Of a stretch of 18,863 nucleotides of DNA, positions 5,057 to 18,863 are shown piece by piece. Position 1 is the stretch's first letter; every line of letters begins with the position of its first letter. Source of the stretch: a bacterium (lineage in GTDB: Bacteria > Krumholzibacteriota > Krumholzibacteria > LZORAL124-64-63). The position numbers and the translations under genes were made by a program. The notes beneath the pieces are model-generated. The model had not been told where the DNA came from. It saw only the letters and a list, made by a program, of their open reading frames with translations, and searched no databases. The stretch spans positions 1 through 18,863 of the forward strand of contig VGXH01000002.1 of assembly GCA_016873405.1 (NCBI GenBank), read 5' to 3'.

Positions 5057-6682
5057 TCAGCGCGCGGGCACGTCCCGGATCCGGCCGGCGGCGGGCGCGG
5101 CGACCGTGCCGGCGCGCTCGATCGCGGCCGCGGCGACCTGCGACAGCTCCCGCCCCGTGTCGGTGAACGGCGGGTTGGGGCGGCCCAGGTAGACCGGCGC
5201 CATCATCGCCACGAAGTCCGGCATGGCCGCCAGGTAGGTGGCGTCCGGGTCCAGGGGCCGGCCGCCGACGGCGACCGCGCCCGCCCGCGCCGGCGCCCCC
5301 GGCTCGCCGGGCACGATGGCGTACTCCAGGCCCGAGACCTGCAGGATGCCGTGGTCGCCGCTGACCTGCGCGGCGGCGTTCCAGTCCGCCACCGCCGCCA
5401 GCTCGGCGCCGCTCAGGCGCACGGTGACCAGCGAGTTGGCGAACGGCAGCACCTCGTGGATGTGCAGCGCGGTCACCGGGCCCGCCACGAGGTCGCGCCG
5501 GATGCCGCCGGAATTGATCAGGCCGACATCGGCCGCGGCCGCCTCGCGCAGCACATCGGCCAGCCAGTTGCCCAGCGCGCTCTCGCCGCGGCCGCGCCGC
5601 AGGTCGGTCGCCAGGGTGCCCAGCACGCGGCCGAACTCGCCGCGCACGCGGTCCTCGTAGCCGTATGCCAGCGCGGCGATCCCGTCCAGCTCGCCGCTCG
5701 CAGCCAGCGAATCGGCCCACAGGCTGACCAGGCGCCCGTCGTAGCCCGCGACCCGGTCGTCCTCCACCCGCAGGTCCAGCCGGCCCAGGTTGGTCAGGGC
5801 CGAGCCGGCCTGCACGATCAGGATGCCTTCGACCAGTTCCGGCTGGCGCATCCGCGTGTGGCTGTGGCCGCCGACGATGACGTCGATGCCGGCGCCGGCC
5901 AGTTCCGCGGCCAGCCGGCGGTCGCCGTCCAGGCCGTTGTGCGTCAGCACGACCAGCAGGTCGGTGACCGGATCCAGGCCGGCGGCCTGCTCGCGCAGCA
6001 GCGGCGCCTGCGGCGCCATGCTCAGGCCGGGGAACCGACTCGGCGCCACGACCTCGGCCATCTCCGCGCAGGAGACGCCCAGGATGCCGACGCGCACGCC
6101 GCCGCGCTCGAGCACCACCGGTTCGGCGCGGAAGGCCGGCCGGCCCTGCCCGTCGACGATGTCGGGGGCCAGCACCGGGTGCTCGAACCGCGGCAGCAGG
6201 CGCCGCAGGTCGTCCAGGCCGATGTCGAACTCGTGGTTGCCGATCAGCCCCGCGTCGTAGTCCAGCGCGTTGAAGAGCCGCGCGATGGCCGCGCCGGGCA
6301 CGCCGTCCTCGCGCAGGTTGCAGACCGGGTTGCCGGTCATGAAGTCGCCGGCATCCACCAGCAGGCTGGCCGGCGCCGAGCGGCGCTGCTCGGCCAGGTG
6401 GTGGGCCAACGCCACGATCCCGCCCACGGACCGGCCGTCGTCGCGCCAGTCGGCCGGGCGGGCGAACATCCCGGCGTGGGTGTCGTTGGTGTGGAAGAGG
6501 GTCAGGTTCCAGGGACCGGACCCGGGCACCGGGGCCGGCCCCTCCGCGGCGGCCAGGGGCAGGGCCGCGGCAAGGGCGGCCGCCCCCAGGAACCCCGGCA
6601 GCCGCCCGGGGCGCCGCCACCGGCCTGCCGCCGGTCGAGGCAAGTCCGCCGGGCCCGTCGACGACCGTCCGCGGGATGCCAT
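5057..6682 (-). CDS. Exported 5'-nucleotidase / UshA-like metallophosphatase
   Basis: A 541-residue two-domain protein. The N-terminal metallophosphatase domain (about 56-320) carries every metal-ligand motif in order: FHTNDTH (63-69), DAGDF (110-114), GNHEFD (148-153), THNG (247-250) and GGHSHT (271-276). The C-terminal nucleotide-specificity domain (about 340-530) carries LINSGGIRRD (388-397) and LPFANSLVTVRLSG (412-425). Residues 1-46 are a long basic signal peptide with hydrophobic core FLGAAALAAALPLAAA, so the enzyme acts outside the inner membrane. The family removes phosphate from nucleoside monophosphates and may cleave nucleotide sugars, usually for phosphate or nucleoside salvage. 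ATG 6682 was chosen because AGGAGGAG lies just upstream; the frame is open further but without a better site. No lipobox or C-terminal anchor is evident. It is divergent from the membrane protein gene. Confidence 0.94.
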   Translation of the reverse strand: MASRGRSSTGPADLPRPAAGRWRRPGRLPGFLGAAALAAALPLAAAEGPAPVPGSGPWNLTLFHTNDTHAGMFARPADWRDDGRSVGGIVALAHHLAEQRRSAPASLLVDAGDFMTGNPVCNLREDGVPGAAIARLFNALDYDAGLIGNHEFDIGLDDLRRLLPRFEHPVLAPDIVDGQGRPAFRAEPVVLERGGVRVGILGVSCAEMAEVVAPSRFPGLSMAPQAPLLREQAAGLDPVTDLLVVLTHNGLDGDRRLAAELAGAGIDVIVGGHSHTRMRQPELVEGILIVQAGSALTNLGRLDLRVEDDRVAGYDGRLVSLWADSLAASGELDGIAALAYGYEDRVRGEFGRVLGTLATDLRRGRGESALGNWLADVLREAAAADVGLINSGGIRRDLVAGPVTALHIHEVLPFANSLVTVRLSGAELAAVADWNAAAQVSGDHGILQVSGLEYAIVPGEPGAPARAGAVAVGGRPLDPDATYLAAMPDFVAMMAPVYLGRPNPPFTDTGRELSQVAAAAIERAGTVAAPAAGRIRDVPAR

Positions 6683-6751
6683 ACCGTCTCCTCCTGCTTT
6701 CGGCTCGCCCCGGAGACCACGACCGGCGCCGGGACGGGCGGGGATTCCAAG

Positions 6752-6781
6752 GGCATAACTGAAACGTCGCGCCGGTGTCCA
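6752..6781 (-). promoter_or_regulatory. Candidate promoter of the nucleotidase gene
   Basis: On the minus strand TGGACA (6781-6776, 5/6) is followed after 18 bases by TATGCC (6757-6752, 3/6). Its -35 abuts the candidate -35 of the divergent membrane-protein gene. Weak -10. Confidence 0.3.
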
Positions 6782-6811
6782 TTGCCGCGGCGACGTCCGG
6801 AGGGTTATTAT
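6782..6811 (+). promoter_or_regulatory. Candidate promoter giving a leaderless or near-leaderless mRNA
   Basis: TTGCCG (6782-6787, 4/6), 18 bases, TATTAT (6806-6811, 5/6). The -10 ends only 10 bases before the ATG at 6822, so transcription would start about 4 bases from the start codon. There is no ribosome-binding site at normal spacing; GGAGGG ends 17 bases upstream and would be outside the transcript. Confidence 0.42.
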
Positions 6812-6821
6812 TAGCGCCGAC

Positions 6822-8114
6822 ATGAAGATTCTCAAAGCCCATGGGCCGATATTCCTGCTGATGCTGGCAACGGTGTTCGCGGCGTTCGGCCGACTTACCA
6901 CCACCCCGCTGTGGGACGGCGCCGATGCCCTGGTCATCTGCGACGCCCACGCGCTGTCGCGCGATCCGGACGCGGTGTTCGGGCACCTCGGCTTCTATTT
7001 CAGCCAGCCGCTGCTCCAGTTGGCGTTCCTGGCCCAGTACCGCCAGTTCGGCCTGGACACCACGGGCTACCTCGCGATCAACCTGCTGATCCACGCGCTG
7101 AGCTCGTTCGTCGTCTACATGCTGGTGAACATGCTGTTCCCGCGGCGGGGACTGGCCGTCGTGGCGGCCGTGCTCTTCGCCCTGGGCGTCGGCAGCTACG
7201 GTCGCGTGTTCACGACCGTCCACGCCCAGGAGAGCCTGCTGCTGGCGTTGCTGCACCTGCTGGTGCTCTACTTCTTCATCCGCAACGATTTCCGCCGCGA
7301 GGGACGACTGCGCTCGCCGCTGTTCCTCGCCGGTCTGGCGCTGTTCCTGGTCTCGGGGCTGACGCGGGCGTCGTCGTTCTCCCTGGTGTCGTGCCTGGTC
7401 GCGTACAAGGCGTTCTTCCACCGGCGTCGCGGGCGACCCGTGTGGTCGCCCGACCTCCTGATCTTCGTCGCCGTCGGCGCGGCCTTCTACCTGGGCCAGG
7501 CGCGCTGGGGTTTCGAACAGGCGACCGTCTTCGGACAGCAGGTCGAGCAGACGCGCTTCTCGCCGCTGTCGATCAAGAACCTGTTCCGCTACCTGGTCCT
7601 GATGCTCTTCCCGCTGCAGAAGAGCCCGCTGCTGGAAACCGCGCCGTTCTGGCTGGAATGGCTGTTCGCCGCGCGGACCTGGATCCGCTTCGGGTTGACC
7701 ATCGCCATCGTCTCCTACAGCTTCTTCGGGTTCGTCTTCGGCAGCCGCGCCATCCGCTTCTTCCTCGCCTGGACCTACATCACCCTGCTTCCGTTCCTCG
7801 CGCACACCGAGGCCGGCCAGTGGCTCAACCTGAACCATCTCTATCTGGCCTCGCTGGGCTTCTGCGTGGTCGTCGCCGCCGGAGCTGTCGGCTGCAGCTC
7901 GCTGCTGGCCCGGGCGGGCCGGCGACGCTTCCTGCCGTACCTGGTTCCCCTGTTCCTGGCCGCCATGTCCCTCGGGCTGACCCACCAACTGGACGGGAAG
8001 TACAAGACGCTCGCTCGCTACCCGGCCTCCGAACTGCTGCGTGCACAGGTCCGCGAGGCCTGCTCGGCGGCGGCCGTCGGCCGGGAGCCCGGCGATCCCC
8101 TGCCGCGGCGCTGA
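6822..8114 (+). CDS. Polytopic membrane protein, GT-C glycosyltransferase-like
   Basis: A 430-residue protein with roughly nine to eleven hydrophobic segments, including 8-28, 82-104, 111-124, 138-153, 166-180, 210-225, 255-265, 290-306, 312-327, 340-363 and 370-386. The first external loop contains WDGADALVI (31-39), and the second segment begins GYLAINLLIHALSSFVVYML (82-101). Both resemble the GT-C fold proteins (ArnT/PMT and TMTC-like) that use polyprenyl-phosphate sugars and have an acidic residue in the first loop; Asp32 or Asp35 could be that residue. No tetratricopeptide repeats follow. The likely role is transfer of a sugar, or membrane handling of a glycan, at the outer face of the inner membrane. 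Substrate unknown and the assignment rests on pattern alone. The start at 6822 is supported by the hydrophobic N-terminus. It ends 53 bases before a convergent gene. Confidence 0.72.
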   Translation: MKILKAHGPIFLLMLATVFAAFGRLTTTPLWDGADALVICDAHALSRDPDAVFGHLGFYFSQPLLQLAFLAQYRQFGLDTTGYLAINLLIHALSSFVVYMLVNMLFPRRGLAVVAAVLFALGVGSYGRVFTTVHAQESLLLALLHLLVLYFFIRNDFRREGRLRSPLFLAGLALFLVSGLTRASSFSLVSCLVAYKAFFHRRRGRPVWSPDLLIFVAVGAAFYLGQARWGFEQATVFGQQVEQTRFSPLSIKNLFRYLVLMLFPLQKSPLLETAPFWLEWLFAARTWIRFGLTIAIVSYSFFGFVFGSRAIRFFLAWTYITLLPFLAHTEAGQWLNLNHLYLASLGFCVVVAAGAVGCSSLLARAGRRRFLPYLVPLFLAAMSLGLTHQLDGKYKTLARYPASELLRAQVREACSAAAVGREPGDPLPRR

Positions 8115-9775: not shown

Positions 9776-10669
9776 TCAGTCCTTCATGATGATGACGTGC
9801 TTGACGGCCCGGAACGCTTCCTTGTCCAGGATGCGCAGGGCCATCTGTTCGCCGTTGACCTCCAGCGCGTAGCTGTCGGCGGGCTGGGCGCTGACGACCT
9901 TGGCCTTCTTCGCGTCGATGGGAATGTAGGTCGCCCGGTCGGTGTCCAGCGCCGTGAACTGGCCGCCCTCGGTGCGGCCGGTCGGACGCACGGTGCGGCC
10001 GATGCCGAGCAGGCCGCCCTTGGACTCGACCAAACCCTGGCGCGACAGCTCCTTCTTCGTGCCGATCACGTAGTAGACCGTGCCCAGCCGCTGGCGAGAC
10101 TGCTCCAGCGACGCGGTCTGCTGTTGGATCGTCTCGTCCTGCCGGCGGATCGTCTCCTGGCCGACGGCCACCTCGGTCTGGAGCCCGGCCACCTGCGTCT
10201 GCAGCTCGCCCACGCGCGTGGTCAGGGCGGCGATCTCCTGCTCCTTCTCCGCCACCGTCTGCCGCAGGCCCCTGATGAGCTTCTCCAGCCCGGCGATCTT
10301 GACGTCGCCCTGCTGCAGCTTTTCCTCCAGTTCCCGTATGCGGTCGTTCGCGCGCTCGACGCCGGCCTTGATCTCGGCGATGCGCGCCATCGTCTGCTCG
10401 CCGCGGTCCTGCGACAGGTTCTGCTCCTGCGCCAGCTCGGTCTGCAACGCCTGCGTGCCGTGCTCGCCGAGGTCGATCTCCTTGAGGCTCTCCTGGATCG
10501 AGACGACCTCGTCGATCGCGGCGGCGTAGCGCGCGCTGGTGGCCTGCTCCTCGGCCTGCAGCGTCGCGAAGTCGGCGCGGCTCTGGCCCAGCTTCTGGTT
10601 CAGCGACAGCACCCAGGCCGCCAGTGCGACGGCGACCACGACCAGGATGCCCACCACGATCTTGCGCAT
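9776..10669 (-). CDS. Membrane-anchored coiled-coil protein with conserved C-terminal domain, function unknown
   Basis: A 297-residue protein. Residues 4-22 form a single hydrophobic anchor. Residues about 25-196 are an almost unbroken coiled coil rich in Gln, Glu and heptad Leu/Ile/Val. Residues about 197-297 form a compact domain: VYYVIGTKKELSRQGLV (198-214), a GGLLGIG loop (218-224), FTALDTDRATYIPIDAKKAKV (238-258), SYALEV (266-271) and a final hydrophobic strand HVIIMKD. I recognise the pattern YYVIGTKKEL...GGxLGIG...IPI..KKAK...P..SY as one seen in unnamed Bacteroidota coiled-coil proteins; I know of no established function. The layout suggests an envelope protein with the coil in the periplasm. 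ATG 10669 has AAGGAG nearby upstream and begins directly at the basic anchor; the 15 codons before it in frame lack signal features. The gap to the CDF gene contains six CGC repeats (10728-10745). Confidence 0.85.
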   Translation of the reverse strand: MRKIVVGILVVVAVALAAWVLSLNQKLGQSRADFATLQAEEQATSARYAAAIDEVVSIQESLKEIDLGEHGTQALQTELAQEQNLSQDRGEQTMARIAEIKAGVERANDRIRELEEKLQQGDVKIAGLEKLIRGLRQTVAEKEQEIAALTTRVGELQTQVAGLQTEVAVGQETIRRQDETIQQQTASLEQSRQRLGTVYYVIGTKKELSRQGLVESKGGLLGIGRTVRPTGRTEGGQFTALDTDRATYIPIDAKKAKVVSAQPADSYALEVNGEQMALRILDKEAFRAVKHVIIMKD

Positions 10670-10780
10670 GCTCCACGCTCCTTGCCGGTCCGTTGTTCGG
10701 GGACTGCCCCACAATATGGCGCCGGATCGCCGCCGCCGCCGCCGCGCGCCCGCCGGGCGCGGACGGGGTCGCTCCCGCGG

Positions 10781-14726: not shown

Positions 14727-15680
<954 letters not shown>

Positions 15681-15813: not shown

Positions 15814-15845
15814 CCGTCTTGCCGCCCGCATCCTGGAGGCACCAC

Positions 15846-17840
15846 ATGAACACCCGCCGAATAATCGCCGTCTCCCTGCTGCTGCTGGCGGCCGTGCCTG
15901 CGTTTGCACAGGTCCCGCGCTCGGTCTTCATCGAAGAGGGCGGAGCCACGTGGTGAGGCTACTGTCCCCGCGCCCGTGCCGGCGTGGCCGTGATGCTCTC
16001 CCGCTATGACGCGACCGAAGTGGACGCCGTCGAGTACTTCGCCTCGAGCGGCGGTCTGTCCTGTCCCGACGCCGACGCGCGCATCGGCTACTACGGGATG
16101 GACGGCTTCCCGACCCTGAAGTTCAACGGCGTTACCACCATCTCCGGCGCCGGCACCGACGCCATCAACGGCAGCGTCTACGACCCGGTCGTGCGCGGCC
16201 TGCTCGACGATGCGACGCCGCTGGCCATGCGCATCAGCGCCTTCTCGCTGGACGTGGGCAGCGCCTTCGTGACGGTGGACCTGCAGCTCGAGCAGCCGCT
16301 GGCCGACATCAGCCAGACGTACCTGCGGGTCGCCGTCGTCGAGAACAAAGTCATGGACGGCCCCACCGAGTACAACGACGTCCTGCGCGACATGCTGCCG
16401 GACCAGCCGCTGACCATCTCGCAGGCCGGCCAGACGCAGCAGGTGACGCTCAACTTCGCGGTCGACCCGACCTGGAACCAGTCCCGCCTGCGCCTGGTGG
16501 CGTTCGTGCAGAACGACCTTGACCGCAGCATCCTGCAGACCACCAACTCGCGCCCGGTGCCGCCCCACGCGCTGCGCTACTACGCGCTGGGCACACGCAC
16601 GGCCATCAAGCACGGCGCGCACGCCTTCGGCGAGATCGGGCTGTTCAACGCCGGCCTGAACCCCGACACCTACGTGGTATCGCTGGACACCGCCGGCCTG
16701 CCGGCGGGCTGGACCGCGCATCTGAGCTATGATGGCCAGGATGTGGGCAGCGCGACGATCCCCCTGGCTCCGGGCGAGCGCGCCCTGTTCAACCTGACGA
16801 TCGACGCCGCCACCGGCGGCGAGGGCACGGTGATCCTCACCATGCACGCGAACAGCGCCGGCACGCCGGACCGCCAGTTGCGCTACAAGGTGATCACGCC
16901 GGACCGGCGCGTCCTCCTGGTGGATGACGACGGCGCCGCCACGTTCGAGACGCAGTACTTCGCGCCGGCGATCGCGGCCGCGGGCAAGACCTTCGGGACC
17001 TGGGACCGGTCCGCGTCGCCGGTCACGGGCGCCGAACTGGCTGAGTTCGACATCGTCGTCTGGCAGTGCGGCCTGTCCTACCCGACGGTCGACGCCGATG
17101 ACCGCGCGGCGCTGACACAGTACCTGGACGGCGGCGGCAGGCTGTTCATCACGGGCCAGGAGATCGGCTGGGAGATGGCCGACCAAGGCGGCGCCGCGCT
17201 GGCCTGGTACAACACGTACCTGCACGCGAACTTCGTGCGCGACGACACCAACGACATGTCGATCACGGGCGTGGCCGGCGACCCCATCGGCGGCGGACTC
17301 ACGCTGACCATCAGCGGCGGCGACGGCGCGAACAACCAGACCTATCCCGACGCCATCAGCCCGCGCGGCGCCGGCGCGAGCGCCTGCCTGATCTACAGCC
17401 CGACCTACACGGCCGCCATCCGCGCGGACAACGGTAGCCACCGCGTGGTGTACCTGGGATTCGGGTTCGAGGCCATCAACAACCCCACCGCGCGGGCGAC
17501 GCTGATGCAGCGCTCGCTGGACTGGCTGCTGCCGTACGTGGCGGACGCGGGCGACCAGGTGCCGTCGCCGCGGCGCCTGACGGCCGCGCCCAACCCGTTC
17601 AATCCGCGCACCGAGATCAGCTTCGCGCTGGGGGCGCCGGGCGCGGTGCGCCTGGAGCTGTACGACCTGCGCGGCCACCTGGTGCGCGTGCTGGCCGACG
17701 GCGATCTGGAGGCGGGCGAGCACCGCGTGCCCTGGGATGGCCGCGACGATGCGGGCCGGGCCTTGCCCTCGGGCAGCTACCTGTGCCGGCTGGCGGCAGA
17801 GGGACGCCAGGTCGCGCGGAAGTTGACGCTCGTGCGCTGA
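15846..17840 (+). CDS. Secreted Omp28/thioredoxin-like protein with in-frame TGA read as selenocysteine (UGYC), FlgD-like C-terminal domain
   Basis: A 664-residue protein if TGA 15954-15956 (codon 37) is decoded as selenocysteine. Reading from GTG 15984 instead would lose the signal peptide and the active site. ATG 15846 has GGAGG 6 nt upstream and gives signal peptide MNTRRIIAVSLLLLAAVPAFA. The mature N-terminus runs VFIEEGGATW-U-GYCPRA: the TGA occupies the first position of a thioredoxin CxxC motif with Cys40 as resolving residue, in the context (EExxxTWCxxCP) seen in Omp28-related proteins. A cis-proline loop GFPT (87-90) completes the thioredoxin fold; the Omp28-like part continues to about 225. 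A beta domain (about 240-350), a Rossmann/GATase-like domain starting RVLLVDDDGAATFE (about 355-565) and an FlgD-like tail (about 577-664, PNPFNP to RKLTLVR) follow. Inferred role: extracytoplasmic thiol-disulfide redox enzyme, surface-sorted. The true stop is also TGA. Alternative: a pseudogene or a base error. Confidence 0.85.
15957..15989 (+). promoter_or_regulatory. SECIS-like hairpin directly after the in-frame TGA
   Basis: CCGCGCC (15968-15974) pairs with GGCGTGG (15981-15987) over 7 bp (one G-U), closing a six-base loop CGTGCC. GG (15957-15958) can pair with CC (15988-15989) below an internal bulge. Counting U of UGA as 1, the loop G and U are bases 23 and 24, the same distance as the essential loop GU of E. 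coli fdhF by my recollection. GC richness makes chance stems likely, so position and loop matter more than the stem itself. Confidence 0.6.
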
Positions 17841-17877: not shown

Positions 17878-17923
17878 GATCCGCATGGCCGCATGCCCGC
17901 CGGGCATGGCGGCCATGCGGATC
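17878..17923 (+). terminator. Intrinsic terminator of the selenoprotein gene
   Basis: GATCCGCATGGCCGC (17878-17892) pairs perfectly with GCGGCCATGCGGATC (17909-17923), and inside it ATGCCC (17893-17898) pairs with GGGCAT (17902-17907), leaving one bulged G (17908) and a GCC loop: 21 bp in all. It begins 37 bases after the stop and is followed by the T-rich ATTCATTTT. Confidence 0.75.
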
Positions 17924-18071: not shown

Positions 18072-18398
18072 ATGTTCAGGCGTCTGGCATTCGTCATCAT
18101 CCTGGCGGCGGTCGGTGTCGCGGCGGCAACGGCCGCCCCGCTGCCCTGTCAGGTGCGGTCGGTCGCGGCGGACACCGTCGTCGTCAACGTCAAGTTCGAG
18201 AAGCCGCAGTGGATGAAGGAAGGGCTGCCCCTGCGCGTGGTCCGCGTGGAGAAGGAAGTCCTGATCGGCAAGTCGATGATCATCGGCGTCACCGACAGCA
18301 CGATCACCGTGCTGACACCCAAGGGCAAGGCCAAGAACCTCAAGCCCGGCGCCGACATCACCGTCGACAAGCCGCGGGCCGGGATGGCTGGCTGCTGA
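18072..18398 (+). CDS. Small exported protein of unknown function
   Basis: A 108-residue protein, mature part about 86 residues. Signal peptide MFRRLAFVIILAAVGVAAATAA, cleavage about residue 22. The mature sequence is a run of short beta strands: QVRSVAADTVVVNVKF (27-42), LPLRVVRVEKEVLIGKSMIIG (52-72), STITVLTPKGKAKNLKPG (76-93) and ITVDKP. It has the look of a small OB- or SH3-like barrel, which I cannot assign to a family. Two cysteines remain in the mature protein, Cys26 and the C-terminal residue Cys108, which might pair. AGGAG (18061-18065) lies 6 nt before the ATG. It sits between the selenoprotein terminator and a multihaem cytochrome gene on the same strand; the 104-base gap to the cytochrome includes a strong hairpin, so the two may be only partly co-expressed. 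Periplasmic location inferred. Confidence 0.78.
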   Translation: MFRRLAFVIILAAVGVAAATAAPLPCQVRSVAADTVVVNVKFEKPQWMKEGLPLRVVRVEKEVLIGKSMIIGVTDSTITVLTPKGKAKNLKPGADITVDKPRAGMAGC

Positions 18399-18502: not shown

Positions 18503-18863
18503 ATGACCCTCAGGAAGCTGGTGCCCGTGGCCCTGCTCTGCGCGGCAGGCCTGGCCGGCGCGGCGTTCGGCGCGCCGGCGGCATCCGGCGTCGGGCGCGA
18601 CAAGACGCTGGCGGCGCTGCCCAAGGCCAACTCGATCGCCGAACTGGTGGCCCGCTACAACTCGGACTCCTGCATCGAATGCCATCAGGATGCGCACGAC
18701 GAGTGGGCCGCCTCCATGCACGCCCGGCCGCTGTTCGGCACCGGCCGCACCGCGATGACCTTCCGCACCTCGATCGACAACGGCTGCATGCAATGGGACT
18801 TCTCCGGCGTCAAGTCGGCGAAGGACGTGCGCGTGGAGCACCTGATGGGCTGCGCCAAGTCGG
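18503..18863 (+). CDS. Multihaem cytochrome c-like exported protein (partial, N-terminal 120 residues)
   Basis: The frame is open to the right edge of the window. Signal peptide MTLRKLVPVALLCAAGLAGAAFG, cleavage about residue 23. The first haem-binding motif is Cys57-Ile-Glu-Cys60-His61 in SCIECHQDAHDEWAASMHARPLF, the typical opening of multihaem cytochromes of the NrfA/c554-like and related groups, in which a conserved Trp and His follow the first haem. Further cysteines at 95 (NGCMQWDF) and 117 (MGCAKS) lie before the cut; neither is yet a CxxCH. AGGAG (18491-18495) is 7 nt before the ATG. Likely periplasmic electron carrier or reductase; which one depends on the missing part. Its neighbour upstream is the small exported protein. 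Confidence 0.82.
   Translation, partial: MTLRKLVPVALLCAAGLAGAAFGAPAASGVGRDKTLAALPKANSIAELVARYNSDSCIECHQDAHDEWAASMHARPLFGTGRTAMTFRTSIDNGCMQWDFSGVKSAKDVRVEHLMGCAKS

Follow-up and report, generated by a model that had tools for sequence, protein, structure and literature searches.

The best NCBIfam match of the protein described here is NF045500, 'Omp28-related selenoprotein', a family entered as 'hypothetical protein GOS_C', with a UxxC motif, in a 2026 review (PMC13188914). GOS_C was reported in 2008 with 74 selenocysteine (Sec) sequences and a thioredoxin-like fold (PMC2398784). A second point of reference is HBP35 of Porphyromonas gingivalis (5y1a), a surface thioredoxin that is left with no thioredoxin activity in the double mutant C48S/C51S (PMC2907840).

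Our analysis covered a stretch of 18,863 nucleotides (the window), in which positions 15846 to 17840 very probably form the gene for one secreted redox protein with Sec in its active site. Like NF045500/GOS_C, this protein has a thioredoxin-like fold (predicted here), a UxxC motif and Sec/Cys pairs among its relatives, but it differs in the extra domains beyond residue 237 and in a score below the family cut-off. Residues 24-234 reach 56.7 bits where the cut-off is 200, and eight relatives (P0003, P0034, P0119, L002, L010, L019, L022 and L023) score 21.1 to 63.9 bits, all under it, so the protein was filed as a divergent variant and not as a member. By analogy, the variant would work like the NF045500 selenoproteins. 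The modelled residues 20-237 match the fold of HBP35, which heads the Foldseek list and is followed mostly by beta-sandwich proteins; however, HBP35 carries Cys where the window protein would carry Sec, identity is 17% over the aligned part, and the match stops at model residue 237, while the solved HBP35 chain has 314 residues. Residues 81-235 also match Pfam Omp28 (PF11551, E 1.3e-5), at 25.5 bits and under the gathering score of 34.9.

The original prediction had presented the combination of an Omp28-like Sec thioredoxin with a GATase-fold domain and an FlgD-type tail as new. That combination was not found in the literature searched, but the claim of novelty went too far, since an Omp28-related selenoprotein family with UxxC, NF045500/GOS_C, was already catalogued. 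A literature search for Omp28 together with selenoprotein gave no match, and no title among the Sec literature matches listed linked Krumholzibacteriota or Eisenbacteria to Sec.

Layout of the gene, its domains and its neighbours

The gene reads in a single frame from the ATG at 15846 through the TGA at 15954-15956 and 627 further codons to a TGA stop at 17838-17840. Direct reading bore out the GGAGG, the signal-peptide-like start and the lone in-frame TGA that had been predicted, and translation gave the expected order Thr-Trp-TGA-Gly-Tyr-Cys-Pro, preceded by Ala. The features of the gene are as follows.

15835-15839, + strand: GGAGG resembling a ribosome-binding site, 6 nt upstream of the ATG, from the sequence
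15846-17840, + strand: whole proposed selenoprotein gene, 664 codons (TGA read as Sec) plus stop, from aligned homologues
15846-15908, + strand: signal-peptide-like stretch, residues 1-21, with an AFA-Q end, from reading the sequence
15954-15956, + strand: in-frame TGA, proposed Sec codon, residue 37, from the sequence and the alignments of relatives
15954-15965, + strand: proposed UxxC redox motif Sec-Gly-Tyr-Cys, CxxC in 24 of 24 listed full-length homologues
17878-17923, + strand: perfect inverted repeat with 15-nt arms, then ATTCATTTTCG, a possible terminator, from a repeat search

All six frames of the window were scanned for a TGA between open stretches (at least 30 codons upstream and 60 downstream), with Cys within four residues, and 12 places came up; 15954-15956 has the second-longest downstream frame among them and is the sole one in a TW-U-xx-C-P context. 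The terminator that had also been claimed corresponds to the perfect inverted repeat, which is terminator-like but was not called by a simple terminator scan.

As to domains, the protein divides into the following parts.

15903-16556, + strand: HBP35-like unit of a thioredoxin and a beta-sandwich, residues 20-237, from the fold match of the model
16110-16112, + strand: Pro89 of a GFPT loop, invariant across a 28-row alignment and expected to be the cis-Pro of the thioredoxin fold
16563-16895, + strand: second beta-rich domain, residues ~240-350, from the secondary structure of the model
16908-17540, + strand: GATase/ThuA/GH42-type domain, residues 355-565, from alignment and model
17643-17801, + strand: FlgD_ig domain, similar to a type A tail of the type IX secretion system (T9SS), residues 600-652, from PF13860 and TIGR04183 scores

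The claim of a GATase-like domain held as far as the predicted fold is concerned, but not for the catalytic residue. Where the nucleophile elbow (placed by eye) would carry Cys the protein reads GQEIGW, with G437-Q438 invariant in ITGQEIGW, and it therefore lacks the nucleophile Cys by which a class I glutamine amidotransferase is recognised. The tail passes PF13860 (39 bits, gathering score 27) and falls below the cut-off of 23 for TIGR04183, at 20.4 bits. Six of eight relatives pass TIGR04183 (P0034 24.2, P0119 32.3, L002 23.5, L010 23.4, L022 36.9 and L023 34.5 bits), P0003 scores 22.5 and L019 gives no match. SprA_N, of the T9SS translocon, was found in 14 of the 19 TGA genomes searched.

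The genes on either side of this one are listed below.

14727-15680, + strand: CysK cysteine synthase, upstream neighbour, TIGR01139 at 442.9 bits (cut-off 350.95)
18072-18398, + strand: ExtJ-like, downstream neighbour, NF040942 at E 1.4e-7 and 31.8 bits (cut-off 52.5)
18503-18863, + strand: start of an ExtKL-like multiheme cytochrome (seleno)protein, cut by the window end, NF040886

The ExtKL-like start matches profile positions 11-109 of 423 in NF040886 (E 6.3e-30, 104.1 bits, with a whole-protein cut-off of 250). It is possibly a second selenoprotein gene, with no TGA within 18503-18863, and the ExtJ-like gene stands directly upstream of it, an order as in the Geobacter ext cluster. ExtKL of the Geobacter extHIJKLMNOPQS cluster has been proposed as a Sec-containing cytochrome (PMC5877670). 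A tblastn search for cysK, ExtJ and ExtK (E 1e-5) gave no match in those loci of relatives that were searched, whose flanks reached at most 6 kb and were often shorter, and ExtKL was found in 0 of 20 relatives' genomes at E 1e-20, a search in which the controls gave no match either. Because an inverted repeat separates the genes and their arrangement was unseen in the loci of relatives, we claim no operon. Two genes elsewhere in the window, both on the minus strand, may also be recorded. That at 5060-6937 codes for a UshA/SoxB-like 5'-nucleotidase with a weak match to the UshA-like (seleno)protein model NF041198 (77.6 bits, cut-off 275) and has no inner stop, and that at 9779-10714 is over the cut-off of NF052320, the Cbp1 family adhesin (134.7 bits against 90), perhaps through mere general coiled-coil likeness.

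Codon 37 among the relatives

The protein search found at least 236 homologues among 7999 scored candidates, and 120 of them were listed, including the window's own protein (P0001). All 24 listed homologues longer than 650 residues have CxxC at the motif position. Another 91, of 595-630 residues, start at the equivalents of window residues 49-69, after residue 37 (79 of them at residue 50), and the remaining five are shorter fragments. These 91 appear to be truncated just downstream of the proposed Sec codon, nine on the evidence of DNA (they match fetched loci at 98.7-100%, and column 37 is TGA in 9/9) and the other 82 from the protein start. This is the loss of the 5' part by gene callers that had been foreseen for the window, whose automatic list of open reading frames holds the 618-residue part only, from the GTG at 15984.

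At the DNA level, 79 first-set loci gave 14 with TGA at the UxxC position (12 called by script, L022 and L023 re-aligned by eye) and 16 with Cys in a recognisable motif; the other 49, with the motif unaligned or aligned by chance only, were dropped. A second search, made in 80 genomes from the phylum to which G002 belongs, was followed up for 30 of its matches, and these loci comprised 15 with TGA (8 re-fetches and 7 new), 11 with Cys and 4 with neither. Apart from the window, the motif codon is TGA at 21 distinct loci in 21 genomes, L019 and L021 being near-copies, and neither TAA nor TAG occurs in this column among the loci read. The 14 first-set TGA loci are labelled Krumholzibacteriia/Krumholzibacteriota, Eisenbacteria, Holophagae, Thermoanaerobaculales or plain 'bacterium', and the TGA relatives as a whole span Krumholzibacteriota, Eisenbacteria, Acidobacteriota and bacteria without a name. 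The argument that a TGA would rarely fall by chance on the one functional residue is thus strengthened by the same TGA in 21 relatives, and the comparison with homologues that had been asked for at residue 37 returned an aligned TGA or Cys. Two of the distant relatives have their TGA in a C-G-U-x-x-C motif (L022, 6100-6102; L023, 6043-6045), and L025 keeps a similar sequence with Cys at that position.

A tree of 138 rows, built by a quick method with SH-aLRT support and with 34 inner branches left open, places the window with P0002-P0009. Groups of TGA or truncated rows enclose the Cys rows P0002/P0003, P0004 and P0034, a pattern suggesting that Sec and Cys have replaced each other repeatedly in one column, as expected of selenoproteins.

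The alternative that survives best is a sequencing or assembly error, with TGC or TGT as the true codon and a Cys form as the product. TGA is one base away from both, P0002 and P0003, the closest full-length relatives among the matches listed, are Cys forms, and the hairpin of the window, described below, is weak. Such an error would have to fall on exactly one of 664 codons, however, and at the very codon that is TGA at 21 other genome loci, while P0005-P0009, rows of the same close clade, are annotated only from downstream of the motif codon. We regard it as improbable.

A nonsense mutation, leaving either a pseudogene or an expressed downstream form of 618 residues, is less probable still. 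The listed frame does begin downstream and is open, but the form it would give has neither the signal peptide nor the first redox residue, the 664 codons hold no second lesion, and a decaying gene is hard to reconcile with a column from which TAA and TAG are absent in the loci read. It is also at odds with the selection seen in 16 Krumholzibacteriota-like TGA genes, the window included (120 pairs). In these genes, pN/pS over the 14 codons upstream of the TGA is 0.33, against 1.6 and 2.4 when that stretch is read in its two alternative frames. The codons ahead of the TGA therefore evolve like a coding region in this frame, under purifying selection; two stretches downstream gave 0.42 and 0.62. 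These results agree with the earlier view that both flanks look intact, and the pseudogene reading was rejected. A changed code, in which TGA would stand for Trp (code 4) or Gly (code 25), had nothing in its favour, was rejected as well and has next to no probability, since the gene's own stop is a TGA and its 24 listed full-length homologues have Cys, neither Trp nor Gly, at this place.

Selenocysteine machinery and a candidate SECIS hairpin

The reading of codon 37 as Sec is also supported by the genomes of the relatives. Matches over the cut-off were obtained for tRNA-Sec, SelB and SelA in 12 of the 14 first-set TGA genomes each and for SelD in 13, and every one of the 14 has at least two of the four components. 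The gaps concern tRNA-Sec in G005 and G013 (the latter 0.1 bit below the cut-off), SelB in G005, which bears a 218.8-bit fragment, and G007, SelA in G009 and G011, and SelD in G009. Of the 13 TGA genomes with SelD, 10 carry a TGA inside the SelD gene itself, one of them together with a TAG. SelA and SelB, the two components sought in the seven further TGA genomes, are present in all seven. ARAGORN, run on 12 fetched loci (10 of TGA and 2 of Cys genomes), recognised in each of them a tRNA-Sec whose anticodon is UCA.

Cys-form genomes were searched in the same way. The first set has 15 that are Cys-only, since G010, the genome of L014, also holds a TGA locus, and at least two of the four components occur in 6 of the 13 tested (L029 and L030 were left out). 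Of six further Cys genomes searched for selA and selB, five have both and G088 has selB alone. Counting genomes with two or more of the components that were looked for, the proportions are 21/21 TGA against 11/19 Cys genomes (Fisher p 0.001), and for SelB alone 19/21 against 12/19 (Fisher p 0.06), in both cases with kinship ignored and with the proviso that a Cys-form genome may also contain an unfetched TGA copy. Machinery is present in every TGA genome and in many Cys-form genomes too, and for this reason it is not specific to the TGA form. From the genomes of its relatives, the window organism would be expected to have it.

A hairpin of four pairs enclosing a five-base loop lies downstream of the TGA in the family; numbered from the T of TGA, columns 24-27 pair with 33-36.

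15977-15989, + strand: place of the family hairpin (a candidate SECIS), of which the window has a weak copy, with 3 of 4 pairs and the loop GGCGU

In the family, 73.8% of cells are paired against 57.8% after shuffling, covariation is 0.321 against 0.107, and for both measures, as for cells changed on both sides, 0 of 500 shuffles were as high; versions of the hairpin slid along the alignment were lower on all three. The two measures described for the tool as less misled by relatedness showed no excess, pairs changed on both sides being equalled in 77 of 500 shuffles and the number of pair types in 425 of 500. The hairpin was picked out visually, from the codon alignment and its likeness to the E. 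coli fdhF loop, before it was counted, so the count is not blind, and two of the four pairs are largely set by the codons for Ala-Gly-Leu-Ala. The family loop is often GGUCU, the loop of the E. coli fdhF SECIS, and the Gly codon at +9 is GGT in 12 of 20 genes against 4.1 expected from their own usage, relatedness being ignored.

Over 22 TGA loci whose folding energy was compared with that of synonymous recodings the mean z is -0.86 (Stouffer -4.0), but the window stands at +0.72, with five further loci also above zero, and its hairpin is no better than shuffles (z -0.06). RNAalifold gave very weak energies of -0.46, -1.61 and -2.32 kcal/mol for 22, 20 and 16 sequences, in structures that differ from the four-pair hairpin, and L022 and L023 have hairpins of 7 and 8 pairs about six bases nearer the UGA. 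Rfam at the gathering threshold gave no match in the whole window. Because the measures are mixed and the window copy is weak, a SECIS hairpin downstream of the UGA is proposed tentatively and at the level of the family.

Proposed activity and its meaning for the family

Taken as a whole, we consider it highly likely that the gene codes for an exported selenoprotein of 664 residues, with Sec37 obtained by UGA recoding; its role would be that of a surface thioredoxin. The prediction of Sec at residue 37 agrees with the TGA in 21 relatives, the Cys in 24 of 24 listed full-length homologues, the machinery of the relatives and the purifying selection upstream of the TGA. UGA codon 37 would be translated as Sec through SelA, SelB, SelD and tRNA-Sec, the protein would be exported by its signal peptide, and delivery to the surface would probably depend, in most relatives, on the FlgD/T9SS-type tail. 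By comparison with HBP35, Sec37 would be the attacking nucleophile and Cys40 the resolving residue within an HBP35/Omp28-type N-terminal thioredoxin unit, and the outcome of their chemistry may be disulfide exchange or reduction. Binding of a partner or ligand is the probable task of the middle domains.

The wider reading, to which we give an even chance, is that these genes form a large, multi-phylum branch of T9SS-delivered surface selenoenzymes, in which an HBP35-like Sec-thioredoxin is joined to a GATase-fold module, Sec and Cys have been exchanged repeatedly, and the whole has stayed hidden because gene callers start at the first Met past the UGA. The results show that GOS_C/NF045500 has a broad and divergent branch with scores under the cut-off of the curated model, and its truncation in the databases costs both the export signal and the active site of a redox protein that is probably directed to the surface. 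The same mis-annotation seems to affect relatives in other uncultured bacteria. Since closely related proteins alternate between Sec and Cys, the contribution of selenium outside the cell may be directly testable in this family.
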